A program made the translations under genes and the position numbers. A DNA stretch of 39,490 nt from a virus: positions 1-39,490 of IMG/VR virus record IMGVR_UViG_3300049845_000349. One strand, written 5' to 3'. This document shows, piece after piece, positions 17,818 to 35,995 of this stretch (positions within the stretch are counted from its first letter, which is position 1; every line of letters begins with the position of its first letter). The notes beneath the pieces are model-generated. The model worked only from the letters and a program-made list of their open reading frames with translations. It did not search any database and had not been told where the DNA came from.

Positions 17818-18567
17818 TCAGACTTTCGTCAGCTTCAAATCTGTCCACCATTGATCCTCCGAGATCTTCAATTGCTGTTTGATATGTTTCTCATCATTCC
17901 ACTGAGCCATCGACTTAACATGAACCCTGTAACGGCTCTTGGCACTGGATTTATTGTATGGGGCTGCCATTTCAGGCTTGAATTCAAACTTCTTTCCTAC
18001 GGTGTATTTTTGTTTCTGATATGCCCAATCTCTGTATGTGCAGTCAAGCAGCTCGCCCGGGAACCTCGGGACTCGTATCTTTGCATACTGAGGAATACCC
18101 TGCCACTCAACGAGCCGGAATAGCCTCTCATCGTTGACTATGCGGTCTGGGACTCCTTTGAAGAAGTACCCAGAGGGAGGAACCATTGTTCCTACGACCT
18201 CATGGTTCTGGTCATGGCAGTAATATCTCATTCCGTCATGTAGATACCAGAACGACACGCAAACGTGAGCGTACTTTTCCCGATCTATTGGATTGAATCC
18301 GGCATAAACCACGTTATTTTGATCGACATCGTTGAGCATTGCCCGAACCATACGGAACCCGAACTTATTAAAAGACCGCTCTATCTTCCTGTAATCTGTT
18401 CCATACATGACGCATACGTCAAAATCATCGTCAGGGATCACTCCATCATATTTCGTGAGTGCAAGCAGTCCTCCGAATCCGAGCCAGTAGTGGATCCTCG
18501 CACCTCCGAAAATTGCGTGAATTACCCTTATTGTCCTCTCGATTTTCAAGCATGGTTCTAATGCCAT
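17818..18567 (-). CDS. LicD-like nucleotidyltransferase-fold transferase
   Basis: 249 aa with ATG behind GGAGTAGATA. The N-terminal half has the LicD/fukutin pattern: YWLGFGGLLALTKYDG followed by IPDDDFDV, where the Asp cluster at residues 46-50 would bind the metal. Later come FNPIDREKYAHVCVSFW and VPRFPGELLDCTYRDW, again like LicD-family C-terminal ends. LicD proteins transfer phosphocholine or related phospho-groups to surface glycans. The donor here is unknown. It is the last gene of the glycan locus and overlaps the FkbM-type methyltransferase by one base. Confidence 0.78.
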   Translation of the reverse strand: MALEPCLKIERTIRVIHAIFGGARIHYWLGFGGLLALTKYDGVIPDDDFDVCVMYGTDYRKIERSFNKFGFRMVRAMLNDVDQNNVVYAGFNPIDREKYAHVCVSFWYLHDGMRYYCHDQNHEVVGTMVPPSGYFFKGVPDRIVNDERLFRLVEWQGIPQYAKIRVPRFPGELLDCTYRDWAYQKQKYTVGKKFEFKPEMAAPYNKSSAKSRYRVHVKSMAQWNDEKHIKQQLKISEDQWWTDLKLTKV

Positions 18568-19223
18568 TATCTACTCCAGAGTTGATCGCCCTGACTGACT
18601 CCCGGCGTACAGGTATTTTTAATAAGCTTGAATCCTTTATTGACCATATAACTTTCAACTTGTGTCCTTATCGGCTGTCCTGCATAAAGCTCAATGTTGG
18701 ATACTTCCATCCATATCATTCTGGCTCCGTTCAGATCATCAGTCATTCCCGATAACACTAAAAGCTCTGCGCCCTGCACATCGATATGAACAAAATCGAT
18801 TTTACCGTCATATATGCTTTTTAATTGAACAGTTTCTACCATCCCCTTATCAAACTTACACCAAGGATGAACCCTTATGTGCTGCCTTGGAGCGAGGATA
18901 GAGCTTGAATATTTCCAGTTTTCAGTATGACCTTTTGGAATTCCTCTTGACCGATAGAAGACTGACTTTCTGTTGAATTTTCCGAGAACTGCATTGATAA
19001 CCAAAGTGCGGTCTGACAATCCAGCATTCTCCATATTCTTCCGGCACAATTCGCAATTATCCTTTCTTGCCTCAAACAGAATAGCCTTTGCCCTTGGAAA
19101 TAACGACAGGTATGTAACAGTGGATGCTCCGTCACAGGCTCCGATATCGGCAATCATTATCTCCGGATCTTCTCCAAACATCTCAATTAGTTCGTCTTTT
19201 ATCTGGACATCTTCAATGATCAT
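18567..19223 (-). CDS. FkbM-family methyltransferase
   Basis: 218 aa with ATG behind GGTGAGAGT. A Rossmann methyltransferase glycine loop is seen at residues 24-32 (IADIGACDG), an acidic strand end in ILFEARKDN, and the FkbM-typical FVHIDVQGAELLVLSGM, where the Asp and the Glu are the family's conserved pair. FkbM enzymes O-methylate sugars or other small hydroxyls using SAM. With the neighbouring transferases this points to a methylated glycan. It overlaps both neighbours by 1-4 nt, so it is part of one translation chain. Confidence 0.82.
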   Translation of the reverse strand: MIIEDVQIKDELIEMFGEDPEIMIADIGACDGASTVTYLSLFPRAKAILFEARKDNCELCRKNMENAGLSDRTLVINAVLGKFNRKSVFYRSRGIPKGHTENWKYSSSILAPRQHIRVHPWCKFDKGMVETVQLKSIYDGKIDFVHIDVQGAELLVLSGMTDDLNGARMIWMEVSNIELYAGQPIRTQVESYMVNKGFKLIKNTCTPGVSQGDQLWSR

Positions 19224-19915
19224 ACTCTCACCATCCTTCTTTTATCGTGAGGAAAAAATCTTTTCATCTTTATTTCCGACTGGTTAACCTTCTCAAACTG
19301 TCCCGCCAGTTCGTTCTTAACAAAGATGAGATTTAGTCCTTCAGTGAACGCAACCAGAGAGTATCCTTTCTTCTTCCCAAGATTGATCAATGCCGAAGAC
19401 GTTGCGCCATAGTAGTCAGTTCCCTGCCAAGATAGATTCCTGTTGTACTTGACAGACAGGGGAATGTCCTGCTTGAATGATGGGTTGTACTCGATTACAA
19501 CAACCTTCGGATCGTATTCCAACGCCTTCCAGATCCAGTAATCGTTTCCGTCAACATCTATCGATATAAGATCAAAGTCTTTTGGAATTGGTGTGCTTGA
19601 CAATATGGAATTTATGTTAGTATCGTTTCTTTCCCGGGTAACTTTCTTGTTGACAATGTAGACTTGGTTCCTATTGTAGTAATCTATTGTGTTAAGTCGA
19701 AGAGTAAACATCTTTTTTTCATCCGCTTCGATATATATACCTCGCCATCCTTTGTAAAGAAGGCACCTTGTGTTGCTAAGAGAAACCCCATCAGATGCCC
19801 CAAACTCAACAAACCAACCAATATGTATTCCGAGATGAAGAAAAAGACTTTCAAGAATACCATCTTCCCCGCCTTGGCTGAACGTGTTTCTCTTATTGTC
19901 GTTGAGTTTCACCAT
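19220..19915 (-). CDS. SAM-dependent methyltransferase, FkbM-like
   Basis: 231 aa. The N-terminal FSQGGEDGILESLFLHLG and WFVEFGASDGVSLSNTRCL (about 12-52) are characteristic of a methyltransferase group often found in polysaccharide loci, related to FkbM. Residues about 133-150 (LISIDVDGNDYWIWKAL) carry the matching Asp motif. It is the second of three methyltransferases in the locus and is only distantly similar to the 218-aa one, so they probably act on different positions. Start and stop overlap the neighbouring genes. Confidence 0.8.
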   Translation of the reverse strand: MVKLNDNKRNTFSQGGEDGILESLFLHLGIHIGWFVEFGASDGVSLSNTRCLLYKGWRGIYIEADEKKMFTLRLNTIDYYNRNQVYIVNKKVTRERNDTNINSILSSTPIPKDFDLISIDVDGNDYWIWKALEYDPKVVVIEYNPSFKQDIPLSVKYNRNLSWQGTDYYGATSSALINLGKKKGYSLVAFTEGLNLIFVKNELAGQFEKVNQSEIKMKRFFPHDKRRMVRV

Positions 19916-20742
19916 TTACTTATGATCCTTTCGACTTGCAGGCATACTCCGTCTAATGAAAAATATTCATCGTAGAGCTTTATGCACTCTGCCCTCATCT
20001 CGGCAATTCTCTCCTGAGATATTGATCTGAGTCTATCTACTATTGAACCGATTTCAGACTCCTTAACAATTACACAAAACTTGTCCCAATCAAGAACGTC
20101 AGTATATGGAAGCCAGTGAACATCGGACACATAGACAGGAATCGATCCAGCCTCTATAGCCTCATACATCCTAAACGATGTTCTGCCGTATCCTCTTGGA
20201 CACAGTGAGAACGTAGAATCTATCATCATCCCAACGAAATCCCTGTTGGCTCCCATAAATAGCTCGTAATGGAACCCGTACTGTCCTTCCAATGCTTTCC
20301 TCAACTCTTCCCTTATCGGATGAGTTGGAGATCCAACGAACGAACAAAGCAGCCTCGGATTCATTTTGACTGTAATATTTCTCTTTGAGCAAGTCAGTGG
20401 TATCGGGATATCTCCGACACCTCCTGCAGACAGATGAATACAGTCTTTTATTTTTGCCAAAGCCCCGTCATCATACTGATGGATAGTCCAACACTTCTCC
20501 CGAATGGTAGAGCAGAATCCCTTGAGGATATTAAGCCGTTGAGCATTTCTTCCATAGTCTGCCGTTATGTGCTGATACGGAGTCCAATGGATCGGGAGAA
20601 ACGCTCTTTCGCATTTTATGGAACCTGACCGCTTCGATATGTACCCTCCAACGTATTCATCCACAGTAGTTTTTGTACTGTGAGGAGGATAAGGCAGTCT
20701 CACTCCCGGCTGAAATTTTTTCGGTACATTAATGATTTTCAT
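19909..20742 (-). CDS. Exostosin-like (GT47-type) glycosyltransferase
   Basis: 277 aa. The C-terminal half contains FSLCPRGYGRTSFRMYEAI followed by EAGSIPVYVSD, the classic exostosin-domain signature in which the Glu contacts the nucleotide sugar. The upstream LLCSFVGSPTHPIREELRKAL also fits that domain (FVG...R..l...l). It would be a GT-B-type transferase adding a hexose, uronic acid or similar to a growing chain. Sugar specificity cannot be read from the sequence. It lies between two methyltransferase genes and overlaps both. Confidence 0.82.
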   Translation of the reverse strand: MKIINVPKKFQPGVRLPYPPHSTKTTVDEYVGGYISKRSGSIKCERAFLPIHWTPYQHITADYGRNAQRLNILKGFCSTIREKCWTIHQYDDGALAKIKDCIHLSAGGVGDIPIPLTCSKRNITVKMNPRLLCSFVGSPTHPIREELRKALEGQYGFHYELFMGANRDFVGMMIDSTFSLCPRGYGRTSFRMYEAIEAGSIPVYVSDVHWLPYTDVLDWDKFCVIVKESEIGSIVDRLRSISQERIAEMRAECIKLYDEYFSLDGVCLQVERIISKW

Positions 20743-21253
20743 ACGCTACCAGAACATCATCTTTAAAATCAAGGCTCGACTCAAGCTTGAAGTCGTAACT
20801 TGGATTTATCTTTTTCAATACCTCGTAGACTGTATCCTTGCCAACTCCAAGCTCAGTATCAAACAACCGATAGTCATCGATTAATATCGTGCTATTTTTT
20901 ACACCACAAGAAAGCATGATGTTAAGTTCGTCCAGAAGCGGATATGTTCCCTCATCAGTTGGGCTTGCCTTATGGGCATCGAGATAGAATACCAATCCTT
21001 TTCCATTATCAACATTTACATCTTTGATGATGTCTGGGAGAAAAATAGAGCTATCTCCATAATACAGAAAGACATTCTTTTCATTCTCAAGACGACCCTT
21101 CGCCTTCAGATAAGCTTCTTTTCGGATTTCTATTGATAATACCTTTCCAAATCCTGCCTTGACAGCTTCAATAGTTGTGTCTCCTGAAGATGTCCCCGTC
21201 TCAATAAAGCAATCGCTTCTGTATTTCTCAAGAACTTCTTTCATTACTGGCAT
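20729..21253 (-). CDS. Class I SAM-dependent methyltransferase-like protein
   Basis: 174 aa. CFIETGTSSGDTTIEAV (residues about 15-31) is a methyltransferase motif I with its preceding strand, VLSIEIRKEAY is the acidic strand end, and FLYYGDSS and FYLDAHKASPTDEG follow as later motifs. It is shorter than most methyltransferases and lacks an obvious N-terminal substrate domain. The start lies 26 nt inside the previous gene. Role: modification of a sugar or lipid-linked glycan, inferred from the locus. Confidence 0.75.
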   Translation of the reverse strand: MPVMKEVLEKYRSDCFIETGTSSGDTTIEAVKAGFGKVLSIEIRKEAYLKAKGRLENEKNVFLYYGDSSIFLPDIIKDVNVDNGKGLVFYLDAHKASPTDEGTYPLLDELNIMLSCGVKNSTILIDDYRLFDTELGVGKDTVYEVLKKINPSYDFKLESSLDFKDDVLVAYENH

Positions 21254-21950
21254 CGTTATTCTCCATGAAAAGTTTTTTTACTGAAGCTATAGACTCTTTC
21301 CCTCTCCCGGCATTAATTTTCCAAGTGCTTCCCTTGTGAACTCTATGACCATACTCAAGATCCTTGTCGATATACAGATATCCTCCGTTCTTTAATAAAC
21401 AGTAATTTATAAACATTGAATCTGCGATGAACGGATCATACTCTTCAAACATTGATACGCTTTCAAGGAAGAAGTCTCTGTTGCATACCCAATTCATGGT
21501 ATTCAGAAGACAGTCGAAAGCCTTAGTGTTGTTTTTTATATGTAGTATTGCCTTTTGTAAATCTATCTTATCCCCTGCATAAGACCTATAATCAAGATAC
21601 GGACTCCCCATAACCGGGCATCTTATCATATTACTTTCAGAGTCCTTAATCGCACAATCTATATACTTGGTAGTTATCAAGTTGTCGGAGTCCAGAAGTA
21701 TTACTGTTTCGCACGATGCCATTTTCATAGCAGATATTTTGTTCTTGAAAACAAAGTGCTTTCTGGAAAGCTTTTTTATTTTCACCTTTAGATGCCGAGT
21801 GAATGAGGTATTGCTCCCCGGCTCTGCAGAGTAAACAATCTCCTCCACCGTTGGATCATCTGCTACAGATGCAATAAGTTCGTTAGCCCAAGCGACCCTA
21901 TTCCCGTGATACGGTACTGCTATGCTTACTTTTTCCAATAGTAATTCCAA
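21228..21950 (-). CDS. GT2-like glycosyltransferase
   Basis: 240 aa. The N-terminal strand VSIAVPYHGNR, then a helix and VEEIVYSAEPGSNTSF, leads to ILLDSDNLI, giving DSD at residues 87-89 as the metal-binding motif of a GT-A fold. Further on, NTMNWVCNRDFF and YDPFIADSMFINY are placed like the acceptor-side residues of GT2 enzymes. The ATG at 21950 overlaps the GT11-like gene by 25 nt. A TTG at 21938 giving LEKVSIAV is an alternative start. Donor sugar unknown. Confidence 0.75.
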   Translation of the reverse strand: MELLLEKVSIAVPYHGNRVAWANELIASVADDPTVEEIVYSAEPGSNTSFTRHLKVKIKKLSRKHFVFKNKISAMKMASCETVILLDSDNLITTKYIDCAIKDSESNMIRCPVMGSPYLDYRSYAGDKIDLQKAILHIKNNTKAFDCLLNTMNWVCNRDFFLESVSMFEEYDPFIADSMFINYCLLKNGGYLYIDKDLEYGHRVHKGSTWKINAGRGKESIASVKKLFMENNDASNERSS

Positions 21951-22708
21951 TCATATCGAGCCAGAACAGGGTCGTTTATGAACTGTCCATCGACCGCTTT
22001 GGCTCCGTTTATGTGAGCAAGATTGAGAGGGTTCTTCTTCATCCACGGGGCAAATGTAAATATGCTTTTAGCTTCTGATAAAAATGTTGCCCACCACGAA
22101 AACGTGCTGTTAGAACAGAGGATTGTATCGAACGACCGGATGAAATCAAAATCACTTTTAGGAGACCCAGATACGATGACCGGATCGTATGGATTGAACT
22201 GCCTCAGATATTTCTCATTTGTTGGATGAGGTTCCACGACCAAATACAGCTTCTGTTTGCGCTTGTTAAATCCGATGCGCTGCAATATAGTCTTATACCA
22301 AGCTGGGCTGATTACTGCCATATTATAATGCCAGTAATAATCAGTAAGCCTGAGATGAGCCACAACGTCCTTGCTGTTTTTTTCAACCTTATCAAGCTTC
22401 CAGAATGTCTTTATTTTGTCCCTGTAAGGGTTATATATCGCCACATTCTGAAAAAACCCACGGAGCAATACGTTCTTTCCCCTGTAATCAGCATCAAGAA
22501 ACGGTCTTGAGTGATCGTCCCTCTCGGTATCTTTTACAAGTATTTCTTCCCCAGATCCGCATTCTCCTCCTTCAGGCTCGTTGGCTTCAAACAATTGACC
22601 TGTCCACTTAGTGCCAAGCTTCAGGTTGTTCTTTTCGCAGAGTATCCTCGCAAGAGAGTACTGATACAGGTTGTTTCCTGTCCTCCCGATGTAATCAATA
22701 GTCAGCAT
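21926..22708 (-). CDS. GT11-like transferase (alpha-1,2-fucosyl/L-galactosyltransferase type)
   Basis: 260 aa with ATG behind GGAGAAAAAG. The family marks are clear: GRTGNNLYQY at residues 8-17, VVAHLRLTDYY with the HxRxxD donor-binding motif, and LCSNSTFSWWATFLS near residue 200, which is diagnostic of GT11 fucosyltransferases. GT11 enzymes use GDP-L-fucose. Here the adjacent upstream gene encodes a GDP-mannose 3,5-epimerase-like enzyme whose product would be GDP-L-galactose, the 6-hydroxylated analogue of GDP-L-fucose, so L-galactose transfer is a reasonable inference. No GDP-fucose synthesis genes are present in the window. Confidence 0.85.
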   Translation of the reverse strand: MLTIDYIGRTGNNLYQYSLARILCEKNNLKLGTKWTGQLFEANEPEGGECGSGEEILVKDTERDDHSRPFLDADYRGKNVLLRGFFQNVAIYNPYRDKIKTFWKLDKVEKNSKDVVAHLRLTDYYWHYNMAVISPAWYKTILQRIGFNKRKQKLYLVVEPHPTNEKYLRQFNPYDPVIVSGSPKSDFDFIRSFDTILCSNSTFSWWATFLSEAKSIFTFAPWMKKNPLNLAHINGAKAVDGQFINDPVLARYDWNYYWKK

Positions 22709-23681
22709 CTTTTTCTCCAGATTTGACGAGATTATCGATCCATGGATATAGCTTTTCCAAACCGTCCATAAGGCTTAATTTAGGGAGCCAACCTATAGTA
22801 GAATGAATCAGGCTATTGTCGCTACATCTTCCTCTTACCCCTGTAAATCCGTCAACGTGGGTAATCTTTGTATCTGCCCCTGCTATATCAGATACCATCT
22901 TTACGAGGCGATTTATGCTCACCATCTCTTCGCTGCCGATATTGTAAATCCCTTGGCAATCGTTATCCATGAGCAGCCGTATTGCATCGAGACAATCATC
23001 GATATACAGATAAGACCTTGTCTGCTCTCCATCACCCCAGACCTCAACAGTCATACTTTTGTTGTGTATTGCCTCGGAAACTTTCCGACACATTGCAGCA
23101 GGAGATTTCTCTCTGCCGTTGTTCCACGCCCCTCTAGGACCGTATATGTTGTGGAATCTTGCGATCCTGACCTGAATATCGTATCTGCGGAGCATATCGA
23201 ACATATGCTCTGCGAATAGTTTCTCCCAACCATATTCGCTATCCGGGCAGGCAGGATACGCACTAATCTCTGAGCAGACAGGGTGGTTCTCGTCCATTTG
23301 GTTGTACTCAGGATAAATGCAGGCACTCGATGAATAAAAGACCTTCTTTGGACAGTACTTCCTGCAAGCATCAACAATGTTTGAGTTAATCCTGTTATTG
23401 TCGATGACTATCTTGTGATCGTTCTTCTTTGAGAAGATGTATCCTGCTCCTCCCATATCTGCTGCAAGCTGATATACCTCATCAATATTCGGATACAGCT
23501 TGAACACTTGTTCCACATTATCACTGCAAACAAGATCAAGTACCATAAACGTATTGCATTTTGTCTTATTGTACGCAGGGATTTTCTTATCAACCCCGAT
23601 TACATTGTATCCGCTTTCAGCAAGCCTCTCAGACAAAGCGTTTCCGATAAATCCTCCGGCTCCAAAAACTATTGCATTCAT
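22695..23681 (-). CDS. GDP-mannose 3,5-epimerase-like NAD-dependent epimerase
   Basis: 328 aa of the extended SDR family. Gly motif GAGGFIG at residues 7-13; SSSACIYPEYNQM at 117-129 with Cys121 at the place of the catalytic cysteine of plant GDP-mannose 3,5-epimerase; YGWEK at 150-154 as the Tyr/Lys pair; then RIARFHNIYGPRGAW, GREKSPAAMCRKV and WGDGEQTRSYLYIDDC. These last blocks fit GDP-mannose 3,5-epimerase better than GDP-fucose synthase or UDP-sugar epimerases. The reaction would turn GDP-D-mannose into GDP-L-galactose (and GDP-L-gulose). It overlaps the GT11-like gene by 14 nt and the GT2-like gene by 4 nt. GDP-fucose synthase shares the CIYP motif, so some doubt remains. Confidence 0.85.
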   Translation of the reverse strand: MNAIVFGAGGFIGNALSERLAESGYNVIGVDKKIPAYNKTKCNTFMVLDLVCSDNVEQVFKLYPNIDEVYQLAADMGGAGYIFSKKNDHKIVIDNNRINSNIVDACRKYCPKKVFYSSSACIYPEYNQMDENHPVCSEISAYPACPDSEYGWEKLFAEHMFDMLRRYDIQVRIARFHNIYGPRGAWNNGREKSPAAMCRKVSEAIHNKSMTVEVWGDGEQTRSYLYIDDCLDAIRLLMDNDCQGIYNIGSEEMVSINRLVKMVSDIAGADTKITHVDGFTGVRGRCSDNSLIHSTIGWLPKLSLMDGLEKLYPWIDNLVKSGEKDADY

Positions 23682-24391
23682 AAAACTTCGATCCTTTTTA
23701 AAGGTGTTTTGTTGCGGATATACTGACTTGTAATGATCTGATCAAGTGCATTTACCTTGTGATCATTGTTTGGATTTCTGTTGTTGTATATGTAAAGTCT
23801 CTCTTTTATGTACCTTGTCCTATCGATACCAGCAAGCTCTATTGCAGGTAACATAATAGCAAGATCTCCAGCTGTCATCACCCAATTTCCGCCCATCATA
23901 AAATCATCTATTGGAATTGCGTCAAAGAGCTTTTTTCTGAACGTCCTCAGGTGGCTTGTCGTCCACCTCTCTTCTCTGACATTGCCTTTTATCTCCCCGT
24001 TGTGCCTTCCGAGCTTACCCGTGCTTTCCGTTACATACGACCCATATGTAAGCATCACGTTTGGATCTCTGTACACTTCCTCTATCTTCCTGAGTGCATT
24101 TGGTCTCAATTGATCATCAATGTCTACTATTGCAATAACATCGTCAGGAGATGCTCCAGACGAGCGTATTGCCCTGTAAATGTTCTTCATTGCCCCGTTC
24201 CGCTCTACGGTAAGCAGGAACGAAAAGTCCCCGTCCTCTTCGAACAGGGAATGCAATACAAACAACTCCTTGTCAGTCATGTTATCAACAACCATGATAT
24301 GCCGATGCGGAACAGATTGTCTATTGACAGACTTCCAACATCTTTTGATATATTCAAGACAGTTCCATCCTGCCGATATGACGTATATCAT
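23678..24391 (-). CDS. GT2-family glycosyltransferase
   Basis: 237 aa. Beta strand IYVISAGWNCLEYIKRCWKS, then HIMVVDNMTDKE, then VIAIVDIDDQL with D90/D92/D93 as the DxD motif, in the usual GT2 order. GGNWVMTAGDLAIMLPAIEL follows near 165-185. Short for a GT2, and probably soluble because no membrane helix is present. The start overlaps the next gene's stop. Sugar and acceptor unknown. Confidence 0.8.
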   Translation of the reverse strand: MIYVISAGWNCLEYIKRCWKSVNRQSVPHRHIMVVDNMTDKELFVLHSLFEEDGDFSFLLTVERNGAMKNIYRAIRSSGASPDDVIAIVDIDDQLRPNALRKIEEVYRDPNVMLTYGSYVTESTGKLGRHNGEIKGNVREERWTTSHLRTFRKKLFDAIPIDDFMMGGNWVMTAGDLAIMLPAIELAGIDRTRYIKERLYIYNNRNPNNDHKVNALDQIITSQYIRNKTPLKRIEVL

Positions 24392-25116
24392 CCACGCACC
24401 CTTGTGAGCTTGTCCAGTATCTCAAATTGCCACTTTACCATTGGATCTCTTACTGTGGCAATGGCATCATTGACCCCACAGAGAAGGATCTCCTGCCACT
24501 TCGCTGCCATTGCACTCGTTACCCGGGAGAATATTGCGCTCTTTATTTCTTGATACGTCCTGCGGTCTTTCTTCCCACGGATAGTTCCAAGGTGTATTCC
24601 ATGATGCCTTTTGATAAGAGGTCTGTGAATATCTATCTTGAGACCGCTCTTCCTGCAGATCTGCATCAGCATCAGCTCATCATCGATGTCTCGGTTGCCC
24701 ATAGCTCCGGCATCTATCATGTTCTCGTATCGTTTCCTAACCTCGGCTGTCCTGCGATACCATTCCCGTGATGCAAAGTGCAGCCCTGTCAGTCGCTCGG
24801 TTCCCCGGCGTTCGGTCGATCTCGGTATGTTGGAATAGCAGAGTCCGGTCTCTTTCATCTCTGCCAGATGGATCTCATGCAGCATCGGATCTTCCCGCAA
24901 TATCATCATATCAACATCAGTTACATAGCAATAGTCCCAATCACCGGATGGCTCATGCACAAACCTCCTGCAGTTCGCCTCGTATGGAGTCAGCACCTCA
25001 TCAAGTTCCATGATATCGACCTCGTAGTTAGGATAGGCGATCTCGATGCACCTTGAGAATACTGGTATGTATTGACGGTATAGACCCGATGCTGTTGTGA
25101 ATACCTTGATCTTCAA
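24388..25116 (-). CDS. GT-A-type glycosyltransferase (GT8/GT32-like layout)
   Basis: 242 aa with a TTG start at 25116, coupled to the small basic gene (TTGA overlap) and preceded by AAGGGG. KIKVFTTASGLYRQYIPVFSR at the N-terminus, WDYCYVTDVDMMIL with D67-V-D69, and a late LIKRHHGIHLGTIRG that could supply the metal-binding His. This order is like enzymes that extend glycans from NDP-sugars without a membrane anchor. It is the first gene of the glycan locus. Donor unknown. Confidence 0.75.
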   Translation of the reverse strand: MKIKVFTTASGLYRQYIPVFSRCIEIAYPNYEVDIMELDEVLTPYEANCRRFVHEPSGDWDYCYVTDVDMMILREDPMLHEIHLAEMKETGLCYSNIPRSTERRGTERLTGLHFASREWYRRTAEVRKRYENMIDAGAMGNRDIDDELMLMQICRKSGLKIDIHRPLIKRHHGIHLGTIRGKKDRRTYQEIKSAIFSRVTSAMAAKWQEILLCGVNDAIATVRDPMVKWQFEILDKLTRVRG

Positions 25117-26924: not shown

Positions 26925-27121
26925 TACTCATCTCTCCTGTATAGTATTTCAATGTTGTTTTCTTTGCAAAATGTTATTGCCTCGTCTGTTAATCTGACAG
27001 TATCGTGTAGCATGAGCTGATACGGTCTACCTATCCTGCACTTTTCAGCGTGCCTGAATGCATTAGACACATAGTCGATATCAAGAATATCTCTGGTGCT
27101 AAAATCTGAACAGATGCTCAT
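26924..27121 (-). CDS. Small unknown protein directly after terminase
   Basis: 65 aa from the ATG at 27121, which overlaps the large-terminase stop (ATGA). An in-frame ATG at 27133 lies further inside terminase. Sequence: MSICSDFSTRDILDIDY at the start and EAITFCKENNIEILYRRDE at the end, mixed alpha/beta. It resembles no family I can name. Translational coupling to terminase makes expression likely. Confidence 0.65.
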   Translation of the reverse strand: MSICSDFSTRDILDIDYVSNAFRHAEKCRIGRPYQLMLHDTVRLTDEAITFCKENNIEILYRRDE

Positions 27122-29196
27122 TGAGCCATCCAATCATACTGGTTCGTATCATCGGTATCATTTTTACTTGGAACGTCCATCTTCCGCAGGGTTTCCCTTA
27201 TGCTCTTCTTTTTGTAGCTGTATGGTTGCATCTCGTCAGGCTCCTTCAGCTCATCCATCTCCCTGAGTTCTGATACCACGATACAGAGTGCCCTGCAGAG
27301 GGGGAATCCTGCCTGAGGCACGCCATTGACGACCGTCCAACCTCGGATCTGCTCATCCATCTCAATGCACTCATCGGACAACATGATCTGAGCGGATCGG
27401 AATAGGTCATTGACTACCATGACCGCCCCGGACTCGTCTGATTTTGGATTGCAATACACCCGGATGCCAGATTTGCGGAGTTGTGCGATCTGATCCGCAC
27501 CGCCCCTTTGCATCTCTTTGTTGCAATATATCCGCTTTATCACCGGACGATTGCTCTGGCGATCACCGATTTTGCACCCTGCGAGCCTCTCAAGGCTCTC
27601 TGCGATCTCTCTGGCGACCGGAACCCGATGCTCGTACTCGGCGTAGACGGTCAATGTCTTATCCCGGCGATCCCACAGAAAGAAAGCTCCCGAGATCCCA
27701 TAGTCACGATCCATCACCATTGCGCCCATTACGATGACGGTCTCAGGATCATAGGAATCCCATTTGATGTCAACCTTACCACGGTGTCGCTCATCAGTAG
27801 ACAGGTAATCAGCCCAGACCCGTTGTTCGTCTGCCTGCGTAGCGAGGCACAGGATCAACGAATCAGCTCGGTCTGGACTATCACCATACCTCTTCTTGAA
27901 CTCTGATTTTGGCTCTATCCGGATGCGTCCAGATCCGTCCATTGAGTACCTACGAGTAGACAGCTCTTCTACCAGATAATCTGACTCCAGACAGTCCTCG
28001 ATCTGGATCTTGTGGATGACGGACTTGGTCTGTCCCCACAGCCACGACACCCTGTCGTAGTACTCGCCAGAAGCCACCTTGCCTCCAGAGTTAACAGGCA
28101 CGACTCGGATGTTATCGGTAGTGTTTTTGTTTAAGGTGTCGATTGCCCCGGCTCCCCAACCACCGGAGTTGTCTACCTTAACATCGCACCTTGACTGAAT
28201 TCCTGTGAGCTTCCTATATTTCCTCAGGGTAGTTACAACCAGAGCGACTATGTCATCGGTATCTGACTGCGCCAGAGTTACCTGAGGGTAAACATGGAAG
28301 CCGTTGCGTATTGTTAGACAGGTCATATCGTCACCGAATCTGGCGCAATCCAACCCGATGCATAGCGTTCCGTTTCCCTCGACTTCTCGGTTCCGTGCCA
28401 TCTCTACATCTGATAGCTGGATAAATGAGTCTGGGTTCCCCTTTGGCTCCTGTCCGAGTACTCGCACCCTGTATACATCTGACTCAAGACCGTACTTCCT
28501 CGCTATACGGTCGCAATAGCTCTTCTTTGCCAATGGAGAGCGCGAGCTGTCGAACCGTAGGCACGACCATTCATCTCGATCCCTATGGAACGCTGAGTGG
28601 CAATAGCCCACAATTACGGTATGCTGTCCTGCGATGATTATCCTGTTGTCTGCCTCGGTGAGAGATCCCTCAATGGTCTCCCATACCATATCGTCCGTGA
28701 TTCCGAACGCCTCGTCACAGATCCAGAGGAGATGCGATGCATGGAATCCCTGCACGGCATCGGGCTTTTTAGGGCTTCGAGCGCGTATGAATGAGTTGTC
28801 CTTGCTCCCATTGACAAAAACCTCGTCCTTCTGCACGGTAAGAAGCTCTGAAAACAGGGAAATTGGTATCCATCGGTTGAATTCAGGAAACAGGATGTCC
28901 TGCAGTTGGTGATACGTTGGTGCGATACAGGGTATCTTGGTTAGATTCCCCGCCTTATTGTGGCGAGTAATGAGGAACCAGAGTGCTATCCATGCGAGTG
29001 CTGTCGACTTACCAGTTCCATGTCCTGACTCTATTGCTACACGATTGTCTGAGTTTATTGCGTTGGCGAGAGCTATTTGATCCGGAGTCATATCTATGCC
29101 CGGAATGGAGCGTCTGGCTGGAACTAAAATGCACTCTCTGATGAACTCTACAGGATGATCGTAGTAGTACTCAAGAGCTGCCGGATTTATCAGCAT
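27118..29196 (-). CDS. terL: Terminase large subunit with extra C-terminal domain
   Basis: 692 aa with ATG behind AAGGCAGATTTAG. The packaging ATPase occupies residues 50-260, with Walker A SGHGTGKS at 57-64 and Walker B LLWICDEA at 156-163. The nuclease is at about 275-455: GLDCARFGDD (281-290), KVDNSGG (340-346) and GDSPDRADSL (438-447) supply the Asp cluster of the RNase H-like fold. That already completes a normal large terminase. A further region of about 175 residues (476-648) again looks like a terminase nuclease domain but without the full set of acidic residues. The enzyme cuts concatemers and pumps DNA through the portal. Its start overlaps the small subunit by 26 nt. Confidence 0.93.
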   Translation of the reverse strand: MLINPAALEYYYDHPVEFIRECILVPARRSIPGIDMTPDQIALANAINSDNRVAIESGHGTGKSTALAWIALWFLITRHNKAGNLTKIPCIAPTYHQLQDILFPEFNRWIPISLFSELLTVQKDEVFVNGSKDNSFIRARSPKKPDAVQGFHASHLLWICDEAFGITDDMVWETIEGSLTEADNRIIIAGQHTVIVGYCHSAFHRDRDEWSCLRFDSSRSPLAKKSYCDRIARKYGLESDVYRVRVLGQEPKGNPDSFIQLSDVEMARNREVEGNGTLCIGLDCARFGDDMTCLTIRNGFHVYPQVTLAQSDTDDIVALVVTTLRKYRKLTGIQSRCDVKVDNSGGWGAGAIDTLNKNTTDNIRVVPVNSGGKVASGEYYDRVSWLWGQTKSVIHKIQIEDCLESDYLVEELSTRRYSMDGSGRIRIEPKSEFKKRYGDSPDRADSLILCLATQADEQRVWADYLSTDERHRGKVDIKWDSYDPETVIVMGAMVMDRDYGISGAFFLWDRRDKTLTVYAEYEHRVPVAREIAESLERLAGCKIGDRQSNRPVIKRIYCNKEMQRGGADQIAQLRKSGIRVYCNPKSDESGAVMVVNDLFRSAQIMLSDECIEMDEQIRGWTVVNGVPQAGFPLCRALCIVVSELREMDELKEPDEMQPYSYKKKSIRETLRKMDVPSKNDTDDTNQYDWMAQ

Positions 29197-30602: not shown

Positions 30603-30833
30603 TTAATCGAATAAATCACAAGAAATAAGTTTAAGGTATTGATTTTTAGGTTTATTTACCCCACGAATTTTAATTAACATCTTGTAAGTTTCTTCTGAAA
30701 TTTCTTTCCCAATTATCCTATTTATCCAACCTGTAACTAATGGAAATTTAATTCCAAGCTATTTACATTGAGTCTTATTTATTCCTACTCCATTTTTACA
30801 TATTTCTTTTATTAAACCTAATGTCACTTTCAT
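30603..30833 (-). pseudogene. HTH (Cro/CI-like) gene interrupted by one in-frame TAG
   Basis: The frame from ATG (30833) to TAA (30605-30603) is 77 codons, open except for TAG at 30761-30759 (codon 25). Around the stop it reads IKEICKNGVGINKTQCK, stop, LGIKFPLVTGWINRIIG, EISEETYKMLIKI, the typical five-helix XRE/Cro layout with the stop just before the 'LGI..PLV..W' recognition part. No downstream ATG with a ribosome-binding site restores the domain. Since the 91-aa gene before portal ends naturally in TAG, the codon should terminate. It is probably a point-mutated repressor or regulator, unless suppressed. It abuts the nuclease-like gene (TAA-ATG). Confidence 0.7.
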
Positions 30834-30889
30834 TTACTCACTCTTTCTACTACACCGAATTTTATTTATTTCGTTGATGCCTCTGATTA

Positions 30890-31200
30890 ATGATATCTTG
30901 CTAAGGACACGAAGGAGACCAAAAACCCTTAGCCCCCTCTCATCCCCCACTGGAGATTTGAAGTGGCTAAAGGTTTTATTGATCGACATCTTAGCTTAAG
31001 GTATCAGTCGATTGGCAGAGGAACCACTCAATTTAATGAGCCAAACCTTGCCAAAACTATTTTCCGGACTTTGCATTGCTGCAGGTGACCAGATAGGTTA
31101 GTCCCAGACCTACTTTGTTCTTTTACTATTTCGAGAGTTAATCCCACCTGTAACTCAGTGGTTTCTCTATGCTCAATTTTTCATACCTGTATGAGCATTA
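30890..31200. other. Gene-free, hairpin-rich region of unknown function
   Basis: No open frame of note on either strand. Several short inverted repeats follow one another: CTAAGG/CCTTAG (30901-30906 with 30927-30932), CCACT/AGTGG (30947-30951 with 30962-30966; the latter can also pair with CCACT at 31024-31028), ATCGAC/GTCGAT (30982-30987 with 31007-31012), TAGGT/ACCTA (31094-31098 with 31108-31112), GAGTTA/TAACTC (31135-31140 with 31151-31156) and ATGCTCA/TGAGCAT (31169-31175 with 31192-31198). The loop of the GAGTTA hairpin holds CCAC, complementary to GTGG right after the stem, as in an H-type pseudoknot. This could be a structured RNA or the leader of the leftward genes. Strand is undecided, and no known RNA family or tRNA was recognised. 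Confidence 0.45.
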
Positions 31201-31204
31201 CAAA

Positions 31205-31337
31205 ATAAAAAAGGCATCGCCCTTAATTACGCTCCGCTGTCACTTGTCGCAGAAGTGGAGCGGAATATGGGACGATGCCTTATATCTATTCCATGTCTGC
31301 GACACATGATAATAACGGAAGTAAATGTAAAAGAACA
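31205..31337 (-). ncRNA. Putative leftward small RNA with two complementary 7-nt hairpin loops
   Basis: A promoter at 31343-31371 would start an RNA near 31337. It first forms a hairpin (31292-31308: CATGT stem, loop GTCGCAG), then a long hairpin (31211-31281) whose base is AAGGCATCG/CGATGCCTT plus CCC/GGG, with an inner CGCTC/GAGCG stem and an apical CACTT/AAGTG stem (loop CTGCGAC, 31246-31252). The two loops are exact reverse complements, so they can kiss within one RNA or between two. The long hairpin is followed by TTTTTTATTTTG, an intrinsic terminator. Total about 130 nt. No open frame fits. Its job is unknown; control of the adjacent repeat array or of replication is an inference. Confidence 0.72.
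31207..31281 (-). terminator. Intrinsic terminator ending the leftward small RNA
   Basis: The 9-bp AAGGCATCG/CGATGCCTT stem, extended by CCC/GGG past one bulged base, is followed on the minus strand by six T, an A and four T. On the plus strand the trailing sequence is TATATCTATT, so termination there would be weak. It shields the region to the left from transcripts starting at the leftward promoter. Confidence 0.75.
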
Positions 31338-31342
31338 CTATC

Positions 31343-31371
31343 AATATAACAATAAAAAATATGTTTGTCAA
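31343..31371 (-). promoter_or_regulatory. Leftward sigma70 promoter of the small RNA
   Basis: Minus strand: TTGACA (31371-31366), 17-nt spacer, TATATT (31348-31343), with TGT before the -10 (extended -10 type). It is of the same class as the three rightward promoters of this window. No protein gene follows before the terminator at 31207-31281, which argues for an RNA product. Confidence 0.78.
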
Positions 31372-31389
31372 TAGAAAAATAAAAATATT

Positions 31390-31411
31390 TGTGGCATGAG
31401 TGTGGCATGAG
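31390..31411 (+). repeat. Two tandem copies of an 11-bp repeat
   Basis: TGTGGCATGAG occurs twice head to tail at 31390-31400 and 31401-31411. The 11-bp period is the same as that of the larger array 20 bp further on, although the sequence is different. It may be a second binding site for an origin or control protein. Confidence 0.75.
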
Positions 31412-31431
31412 AATATTATTATTTGTAAACG

Positions 31432-31563
31432 TGAACCGGAAATGAACCGGAAATGAACCTGAAATGAACCGGAAATGAACCGGAAATGAACCTGAAATGA
31501 ACCTGAAATGAACCTGAAATGAACCGGAAATGAACCTGAAATGAACCTGAAATGAACCTGAAA
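31432..31563 (+). repeat. Iteron-like array, 12 tandem copies of an 11-bp unit
   Basis: Twelve uninterrupted copies of TGAACCNGAAA, identical except for position 7, which is G in copies 1, 2, 4, 5 and 9 and T in copies 3, 6, 7, 8, 10, 11 and 12. The 11-bp period puts every copy on nearly the same face of the helix. Each frame is broken by TGA, so it is not coding. An AT-rich stretch (31564-31643) follows. Arrays of this kind are typical of replication origins that bind an initiator in rows. They could also be an operator for the promoters on either side. Confidence 0.85.
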
Positions 31564-31643
31564 TAATTCATTGCCATTTGTAAAATTTTACACATTGCAT
31601 CTCTTTTGTTTTCATGTGATTGTTAATTTATTTAAAAAAAATA

Positions 31644-31672
31644 TTGACAATTATTTAAAACTGTGGTATATT
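31644..31672 (+). promoter_or_regulatory. Rightward early promoter 1
   Basis: TTGACA (31644-31649), 17-nt spacer, TGG-TATATT (-10 at 31667-31672). The transcript would begin near 31679, and a small stem TGCCGG/CCGGTA (31683-31698) stands at its 5' end, followed by AACCTGAGGAGG and the 69-aa gene. It is next to the iteron array. Confidence 0.85.
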
Positions 31673-31718
31673 TACTTATGTCTGCCGGATGTCCGGTAGC
31701 GAACCTGAGGAGGATAGT

Positions 31719-32992: not shown

Positions 32993-33021
32993 TTGACAAC
33001 TTTTAAGAATTATGGTATATT
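32993..33021 (+). promoter_or_regulatory. Rightward early promoter 2 (helicase)
   Basis: TTGACA (32993-32998), 17-nt spacer, TGG-TATATT (-10 at 33016-33021). A perfect 9-bp hairpin ATGTGGTGG/CCACCACAT (33026-33050, 7-nt loop) lies at the predicted 5' end and is directly followed by AACCTGAGGA and the helicase ATG. Confidence 0.85.
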
Positions 33022-33067
33022 GTCTATGTGGTGGTCGGAAGCCACCACATAACCTGAGGAAGAAACG

Positions 33068-35924: not shown

Positions 35925-35953
35925 TTGACAACCGTTGATTAAAGTGGTATATT
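35925..35953 (+). promoter_or_regulatory. Rightward early promoter 3 (recombination genes)
   Basis: TTGACA (35925-35930), 17-nt spacer, TGG-TATATT (-10 at 35948-35953). The 5' end of the message carries a GCGGTC/GATCGC hairpin (35960-35976, one G-U pair), then AACCTGAGGAGG and the 27-aa gene. It drives the Gp157/Rad52/SSB-like group. Confidence 0.85.
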
Positions 35954-35995
35954 GATAATGCGGTCAGGTAGATCGCAAAACCTGAGGAGGTTAGT

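Follow-up and report, generated by a model that had tools for sequence, protein, structure and literature searches.

Genome organisation

The window analysed here is a whole virus record in IMG/VR, 39,490 nt in length, and its genes form two divergent blocks. The leftward block contains terminase, portal, head, and tail genes, and a cluster that resembles by eye genes for sugar and methyl transfer. This cluster (17818-25116, minus strand) has about ten genes that appear by eye to be LicD-like, FkbM-like, glycosyltransferase, and epimerase genes, in a phage of only 39 kb. The rightward block comprises an SNF2 helicase, a Gp157/Gam-like protein, a Rad52-like annealing protein, and SSB. Known phages are distant, with a best terminase identity of about 33%, and a tblastn search of the portal against the phage collection gave no match. 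The large terminase (27118-29196, minus strand) has 692 amino acids and an extra C-terminal domain of about 230 amino acids, which by eye resembles a second RNase H-like nuclease domain. Among the loci fetched, only a rumen contig (L017/L097) and a MAG contig (L114) also have such a domain.

The region between the blocks (30603-31688) comprises 1,086 nt without convincing genes, and the predicted RNA lies inside it. The iteron array that the original prediction placed next to the RNA is present at 31432-31563 (no strand assigned) and consists of about 12 copies of an 11-bp unit, TGAACC(G/T)GAAA. The iteron unit TGAACCTGAAA and the ribosome-binding site AACCTGAGGA have AACCTGA in common.

Promoters and expression context

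The RNA is preceded on the minus strand by a sigma70-type extended -10 promoter at 31343-31371, TTGACA-17-TATATT (TTGACA-17-TGTTATATT), which matches 11 of 12 consensus positions and also has the TG. TTGACA lies at 31371-31366 and is followed by a 17-nt spacer and the TG-extended TATATT at 31348-31343. The promoter is thus present as first described, and it ranks second among the sigma70-like sites on the minus strand of the window. A divergent early rightward promoter, TTGACA-17-TGGTATATT, is found at 31644-31672 on the plus strand and is followed by a leader hairpin and the ribosome-binding site AACCTGAGGAGG. The plus-strand sites at 31644, 32993, and 35925 are identical to the promoter of the leftward RNA in hexamers, spacing, and TG. 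These three near-identical early promoters (31644-31711, 32993-33060, and 35925-35988, plus strand) are each followed by a hairpin leader and a AACCTGAGGA ribosome-binding site. Since its promoter is of the same class, the leftward RNA should be made early, together with the replication genes.

No other good leftward promoter was found between 31343 and the first leftward genes (gene 30602), and a weaker candidate, TTGACA-17-TAGATT, is present at 29839-29811, directly ahead of the small terminase gene. The RNA would therefore either be made on its own or lead a leftward unit comprising at least genes 30602-29847. On the plus strand, no strong promoter reads into 31205-31337.

The predicted RNA and its complementary loops

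The predicted short RNA has 133 nt, with a start near 31337 and an end near 31205 on the minus strand. Its minimum free energy (MFE) is -42.2 kcal/mol, which is lower than in all 200 dinucleotide shuffles (z -4.6). Hairpin 1 (UCAUGUGUCGCAGACAUGGA, 31290-31309, minus strand), referred to here as arm b, carries the loop GUCGCAG at 31303-31297. Arm e, the apex of hairpin 2 (UCCACUUCUGCGACAAGUGA, 31240-31259, minus strand), carries CUGCGAC at 31252-31246; it is complementary to arm b at 16 of 20 positions, arm b being its inverted copy. A long terminator hairpin (31207-31281, minus strand; base AAGGCAUCGUCCC/GGGCGAUGCCUU) ends in U6 at 31212-31207, which agrees with the reported T6 run. The absence of an open frame, also reported, is right in substance: a 26-codon ATG frame starts at nt 31 of the RNA and has no Shine-Dalgarno sequence. 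This frame was judged to be due to chance, and a leader peptide was rejected.

The two loops GTCGCAG and CTGCGAC are exact reverse complements, as claimed, and TGTCGCAGA occurs without mismatch in the window only at the two loop sites. No other two hairpins of the window combine stems of ≥5 bp with loops that contain complementary 7-mers. Such pairs occurred 14 times in 908 whole-window shuffles (0.015 per window), and four comparable pairs were found in other loci of phages and bacteria (1.9 Mb). The loop-loop duplex has an energy of -10.5 kcal/mol. The description of two 7-nt hairpin loops holds for their sequences and complementarity; it does not hold for CTGCGAC as a clean apical loop, which is absent from the minimum-energy fold and whose GC is mostly paired in the ensemble. 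The fold carrying both 7-nt loops has -37.5 kcal/mol and lies 4.7 kcal/mol above the MFE.

ColE1 RNA I and RNA II are transcribed from opposite strands, and their 7-nt hairpin loops kiss with perfect complementarity. The loops described here are likewise perfectly complementary over 7 nt, but both are in one minus-strand RNA, with no counter-transcript and no strong opposing plus-strand promoter, and the proposed kinship to the ColE1 type was not borne out.

Inverted arms and competing folds

The complementarity is larger than the loops to which the original prediction confined it. It covers 16 of the 20 positions around the loops plus another arm of 11 nt, and at the sequence level the two halves of the predicted RNA nearly mirror each other. 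Hairpin 1 (TCATGTGTCGCAGACATGGA) is identical at 16 of 20 positions to the reverse complement of the hairpin 2 apex (TCACTTGTCGCAGAAGTGGA). All four differences are in the stems, where they make up two compensatory pair changes (U-A/C-G and G-C/U-A), and both hairpins survive because each changed stem pair is altered on both sides. By a back-of-envelope estimate, in which the arms are taken to be copies of one another, the odds of such compensation for four random differences in 20 positions are of the order of 2 in 10,000. Arm a (UUACUUCCGUU, nt 14-24, 31314-31324, minus strand) adds 11 nt of leader pairing with the 3' side of hairpin 2. Its partner is arm f (AGCGGAGCGUAA, nt 100-111, 31226-31238, minus strand), which also contributes one strand to the centre of the terminator hairpin, where it pairs with UUCCGCUCC. 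The arms are about 34 nt each, and the inverted-repeat pairing amounts to about 28 bp.

Two folds can be formed from these arms. Fold A consists of hairpin 1 and the terminator hairpin, with arm f paired to UUCCGCUCC, and has -42.2 kcal/mol. Fold B is one long hairpin of both arms, in which arm f is paired to arm a and the 3' arm of the terminator is left without a partner, and has -40.5 kcal/mol. The two are mutually exclusive, near-equal in energy, and have no long helix in common. In silico, the leader thus has two mutually exclusive folds, one of them with an intrinsic terminator, as in an attenuator. In prefixes of 95-125 nt, which stop short of a complete terminator 3' arm, fold B has the lowest energy; fold A overtakes it only in the full-length RNA. 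For direct refolding from B to A, the lowest barrier found is about 38 kcal/mol, which is an upper bound. All these energies exclude pseudoknots and kissing, and they show capacity and not behaviour.

When the 56-nt leader was shuffled and the terminator kept constant, none of 2000 sequences reached the real energy with the terminator 3' arm unpaired (z -4.6). With this arm unpaired, the gap to the MFE is 6.6, compared to 19.1 ± 2.4 in the leader shuffles. Among 548 hairpin-plus-U-run sites, comprising those of the window and of other loci, the element ranks third in the number of leader-terminator pairs (33), and only two sites have a lower leader z-score. The two sites ranked above it by z-score owe their position mainly to separate upstream hairpins.

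A possible read-through transcript

Past the terminator, the segment 31116-31130 (minus strand) is complementary, with one bulge, to the 5'-terminal 15 nt of the RNA, and 8 of 1000 shuffles pair as well. In a longer transcript, pairing of the 5' 15 nt with nt 208-222 (31130-31116) would close a multibranch domain. The same complementarity means that the short RNA could also bind the read-through RNA. A second leftward terminator-like hairpin (AAAACCUUUAGCC...GGCUAAGGGUUUUU) is present at 30921-30977 on the minus strand. The 413-nt read-through RNA has a z-score of about -6.2 to -6.6, and the stretch between the two terminators alone is unremarkable (z -1.2). A longer structured RNA of about 415 nt that ends at the hairpin 30977-30921 is no more than a possibility.

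Search for related elements

None of the 4227 Rfam families matched the predicted RNA at the gathering score, in line with the original statement that no matching family was known. The models of P4 CI, C4 antisense RNA, and isrK gave no match up to an E-value of 10, and no Rfam covariance model match was obtained for ColE1 RNA I/RNA II, pRNA, ROOL, or GOLLD. A tRNA-like or tRNA-linked element was rejected, as no tRNA was found. A 551-nt region compared with phages gave nothing usable, and the predicted RNA compared with phages and plasmids at a relaxed E-value gave chance matches only. In IMG/VR, searches with an exact 37-mer, a 20-nt hairpin motif, and loop-pair patterns yielded no match with a paired-hairpin context, all matches having been read. 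The early promoter and ribosome-binding site signature matched sequences in IMG/VR that resemble parts of unrelated genes, and no protein of the window has a relative in those loci.

Searches of the terminase and portal in IMG/VR and in genomes identified L017/L097 and L114 as the closest kin, at about 30-35% identity. L017 contains no complementary-loop pair, and L114 includes no upstream sequence. No relative with the element turned up in phages, plasmids, or IMG/VR, but these collections may leave out the records most similar to the window, so one may still exist.

A proposed leader with a terminator/antiterminator switch

The reading favoured here, tentatively and at somewhat less than an even chance, is that of an early leader RNA of the leftward unit with a terminator/antiterminator switch, whose terminated 133-nt product would be a self-complementary small RNA. 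It builds on the promoter class, the two inverted arms of about 34 nt, the two exclusive folds of near-equal energy, and the U6 terminator, as obtained from sequence and folding. The original picture of a self-contained leftward small RNA with kissing loops is retained, at the sequence level, as a leftward, self-terminating, and self-complementary RNA. Its ColE1-like kissing part is replaced by the pairing of about 28 bp of arms, of which the 7-nt loops are only a portion. An attenuator in the leader of a leftward operon is at least as good a description as a kissing-loop small RNA, because a single RNA contains both partners, no notable opposing promoter is present, and the arm pairing is this long. 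The further suggestion of replication control is a guess, drawn only from the adjacency to the iterons.

In such a switch, the loop of the emerging arm e would contact the 7-nt loop of hairpin 1, and the arms would then exchange, an exchange that the complementary loops probably nucleate. Fold B would serve as the antiterminator, forming ahead of the synthesis of the terminator 3' arm and giving read-through towards the leftward genes. If hairpin 1 were held closed, for example by a bound protein or by a second copy of the short RNA through the same loops, fold A and termination would be favoured. Termination favoured by a second copy of the short RNA would be a form of autoregulation.

Several observations count against the switch. 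In the 413-nt read-through RNA, the arms of fold B pair with a probability of only about 0.005. Some 600 nt and the second terminator-like hairpin separate the RNA from the first leftward gene, and a separate promoter candidate for the terminase genes is present at 29839-29811. Pairing of arms b and e is what any inverted duplication would give. Neither a ligand nor a protein nor a leader peptide was identified for the switch.

A stronger form of the switch would be an attenuator without a separate antisense RNA or ligand, and it is considered improbable. Here the two halves of the leader would be mirror copies and its terminated product its own antisense regulator, with loop kissing as the antiterminator nucleus in cis and the blocking signal in trans. 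Phage leaders that choose between termination and read-through normally require a protein or a countertranscript. If this form is true, inverted duplication would have supplied the leader with its own antisense, making it a minimal self-limiting timer of early transcription. Such a compact self-antisense leader would be easy to test and reusable as a synthetic RNA device.

Comparison with known systems and alternative readings

Plasmid attenuators of the pIP501/pT181 type have competing terminator and antiterminator folds in the leader, and control is exerted by a countertranscript made from the opposite strand. Competing leader folds are present here too, but no opposing promoter of note is found and the RNA is complementary to itself. 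In IsrK of Gifsy-1 and the seqA/CI RNA of satellite phage P4, one promoter gives short terminated and read-through forms, and complementary segments within one transcription unit (seqA, CI, and seqC) control termination (PMC4825925). The predicted RNA contains complementary segments that in silico compete with its terminator, and these may likewise bear on termination. The element differs in having an intrinsic U6 terminator and nested self-complementary arms, and not a processed CI RNA. By analogy, IsrK and P4 CI RNA offer the nearest documented logic; this is a likeness and not membership, because no Rfam family matches.

An alternative that is possible though unlikely is a stand-alone early small RNA with a structural or regulatory role, which would form dimers or multimers through its complementary loops, like phi29 pRNA or the ornate phage RNAs. 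The phi29 pRNA is a phage RNA with two complementary loops per molecule that pair between molecules (PMC7357161), and the ornate ROOL and GOLLD are phage noncoding RNAs that assemble via kissing loops (PMC12286853). The 7 complementary nt in two loops, the loop duplex energy, and the preservation of both intra-arm hairpins through two compensatory changes between the copies are in favour of this alternative. The 4-nt linker and the long second stem would also strain an intramolecular kiss and make intermolecular contact easier. Against it, the fold with both loops is not the minimum, and none of the pRNA, ROOL, and GOLLD models matches. Kissing in phi29 pRNA involves 4 bp, compared to 7 nt here, and this phage has a two-subunit terminase. 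Its large and small terminase genes are ordinary, of a kind without a known need for pRNA, and not a gp16-type packaging ATPase with prohead RNA. ROOL and GOLLD are much longer and often near tRNA islands, whereas no tRNA island is present here.

A plain early promoter and terminator of the lambda 6S kind (pR'-tR') is rather unlikely. The locus would then give a constitutive short transcript, with read-through only in the presence of a phage antiterminator protein, and the mirror arms would be incidental. Lambda 6S RNA is a short constitutive leader followed by a terminator and a long operon. The strong promoter, short leader, and strong terminator, with about 600 nt to the leftward genes, resemble this arrangement. 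In contrast, the promoter is of the early class, the inverted arms are left unexplained, and no Q-like gene was recognised among the proteins searched, although several small early proteins are without assignment. If the locus is merely an early RNA with a terminator, it would be a phage small RNA of an ordinary kind that has not yet been named.

The probability left after these three leading readings is divided among an origin element, antisense action, and chance. A role of the inverted hairpins in replication initiation, either as DNA or within an origin transcript by the iterons, as protein-binding or single-strand hairpins, is improbable: the nearest iteron is about 120 bp from the hairpins, but neither an initiator gene nor a DnaA-type origin was identified, the transcript heads away from the iterons, and the promoter and U-run point to RNA. 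An RNA that acts in trans as antisense to messages of the phage or its host is highly improbable, in spite of an unpaired, pyrimidine-rich 5' end and 11 nt that match the read-through RNA at 31126-31116; no 12-mer complement occurs elsewhere in the phage, and phage start regions were rejected as targets, as the best 5'-end pairing with them is at shuffle level (65 of 200 shuffles as good).

Frame and repeats downstream of the terminator

The region downstream of the terminator contains a small helix-turn-helix-like frame at 30831-30603 on the minus strand (MKVTLGLIKEICKNGVGINKTQCK*LGIKFPLVTGWINR...), with one in-frame TAG. As TAG ends five other genes, it is a real stop in this phage, and the frame is either a decayed gene or read through. 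Translation with X at the stop gave no Pfam match. An 18-nt repeat, AGTTACAGGT(T/G)GGAT(A/T)AA (minus strand), is found inside this frame at 30738-30721 and again just past the terminator at 31155-31138, and is perhaps the remnant of a duplicated gene.
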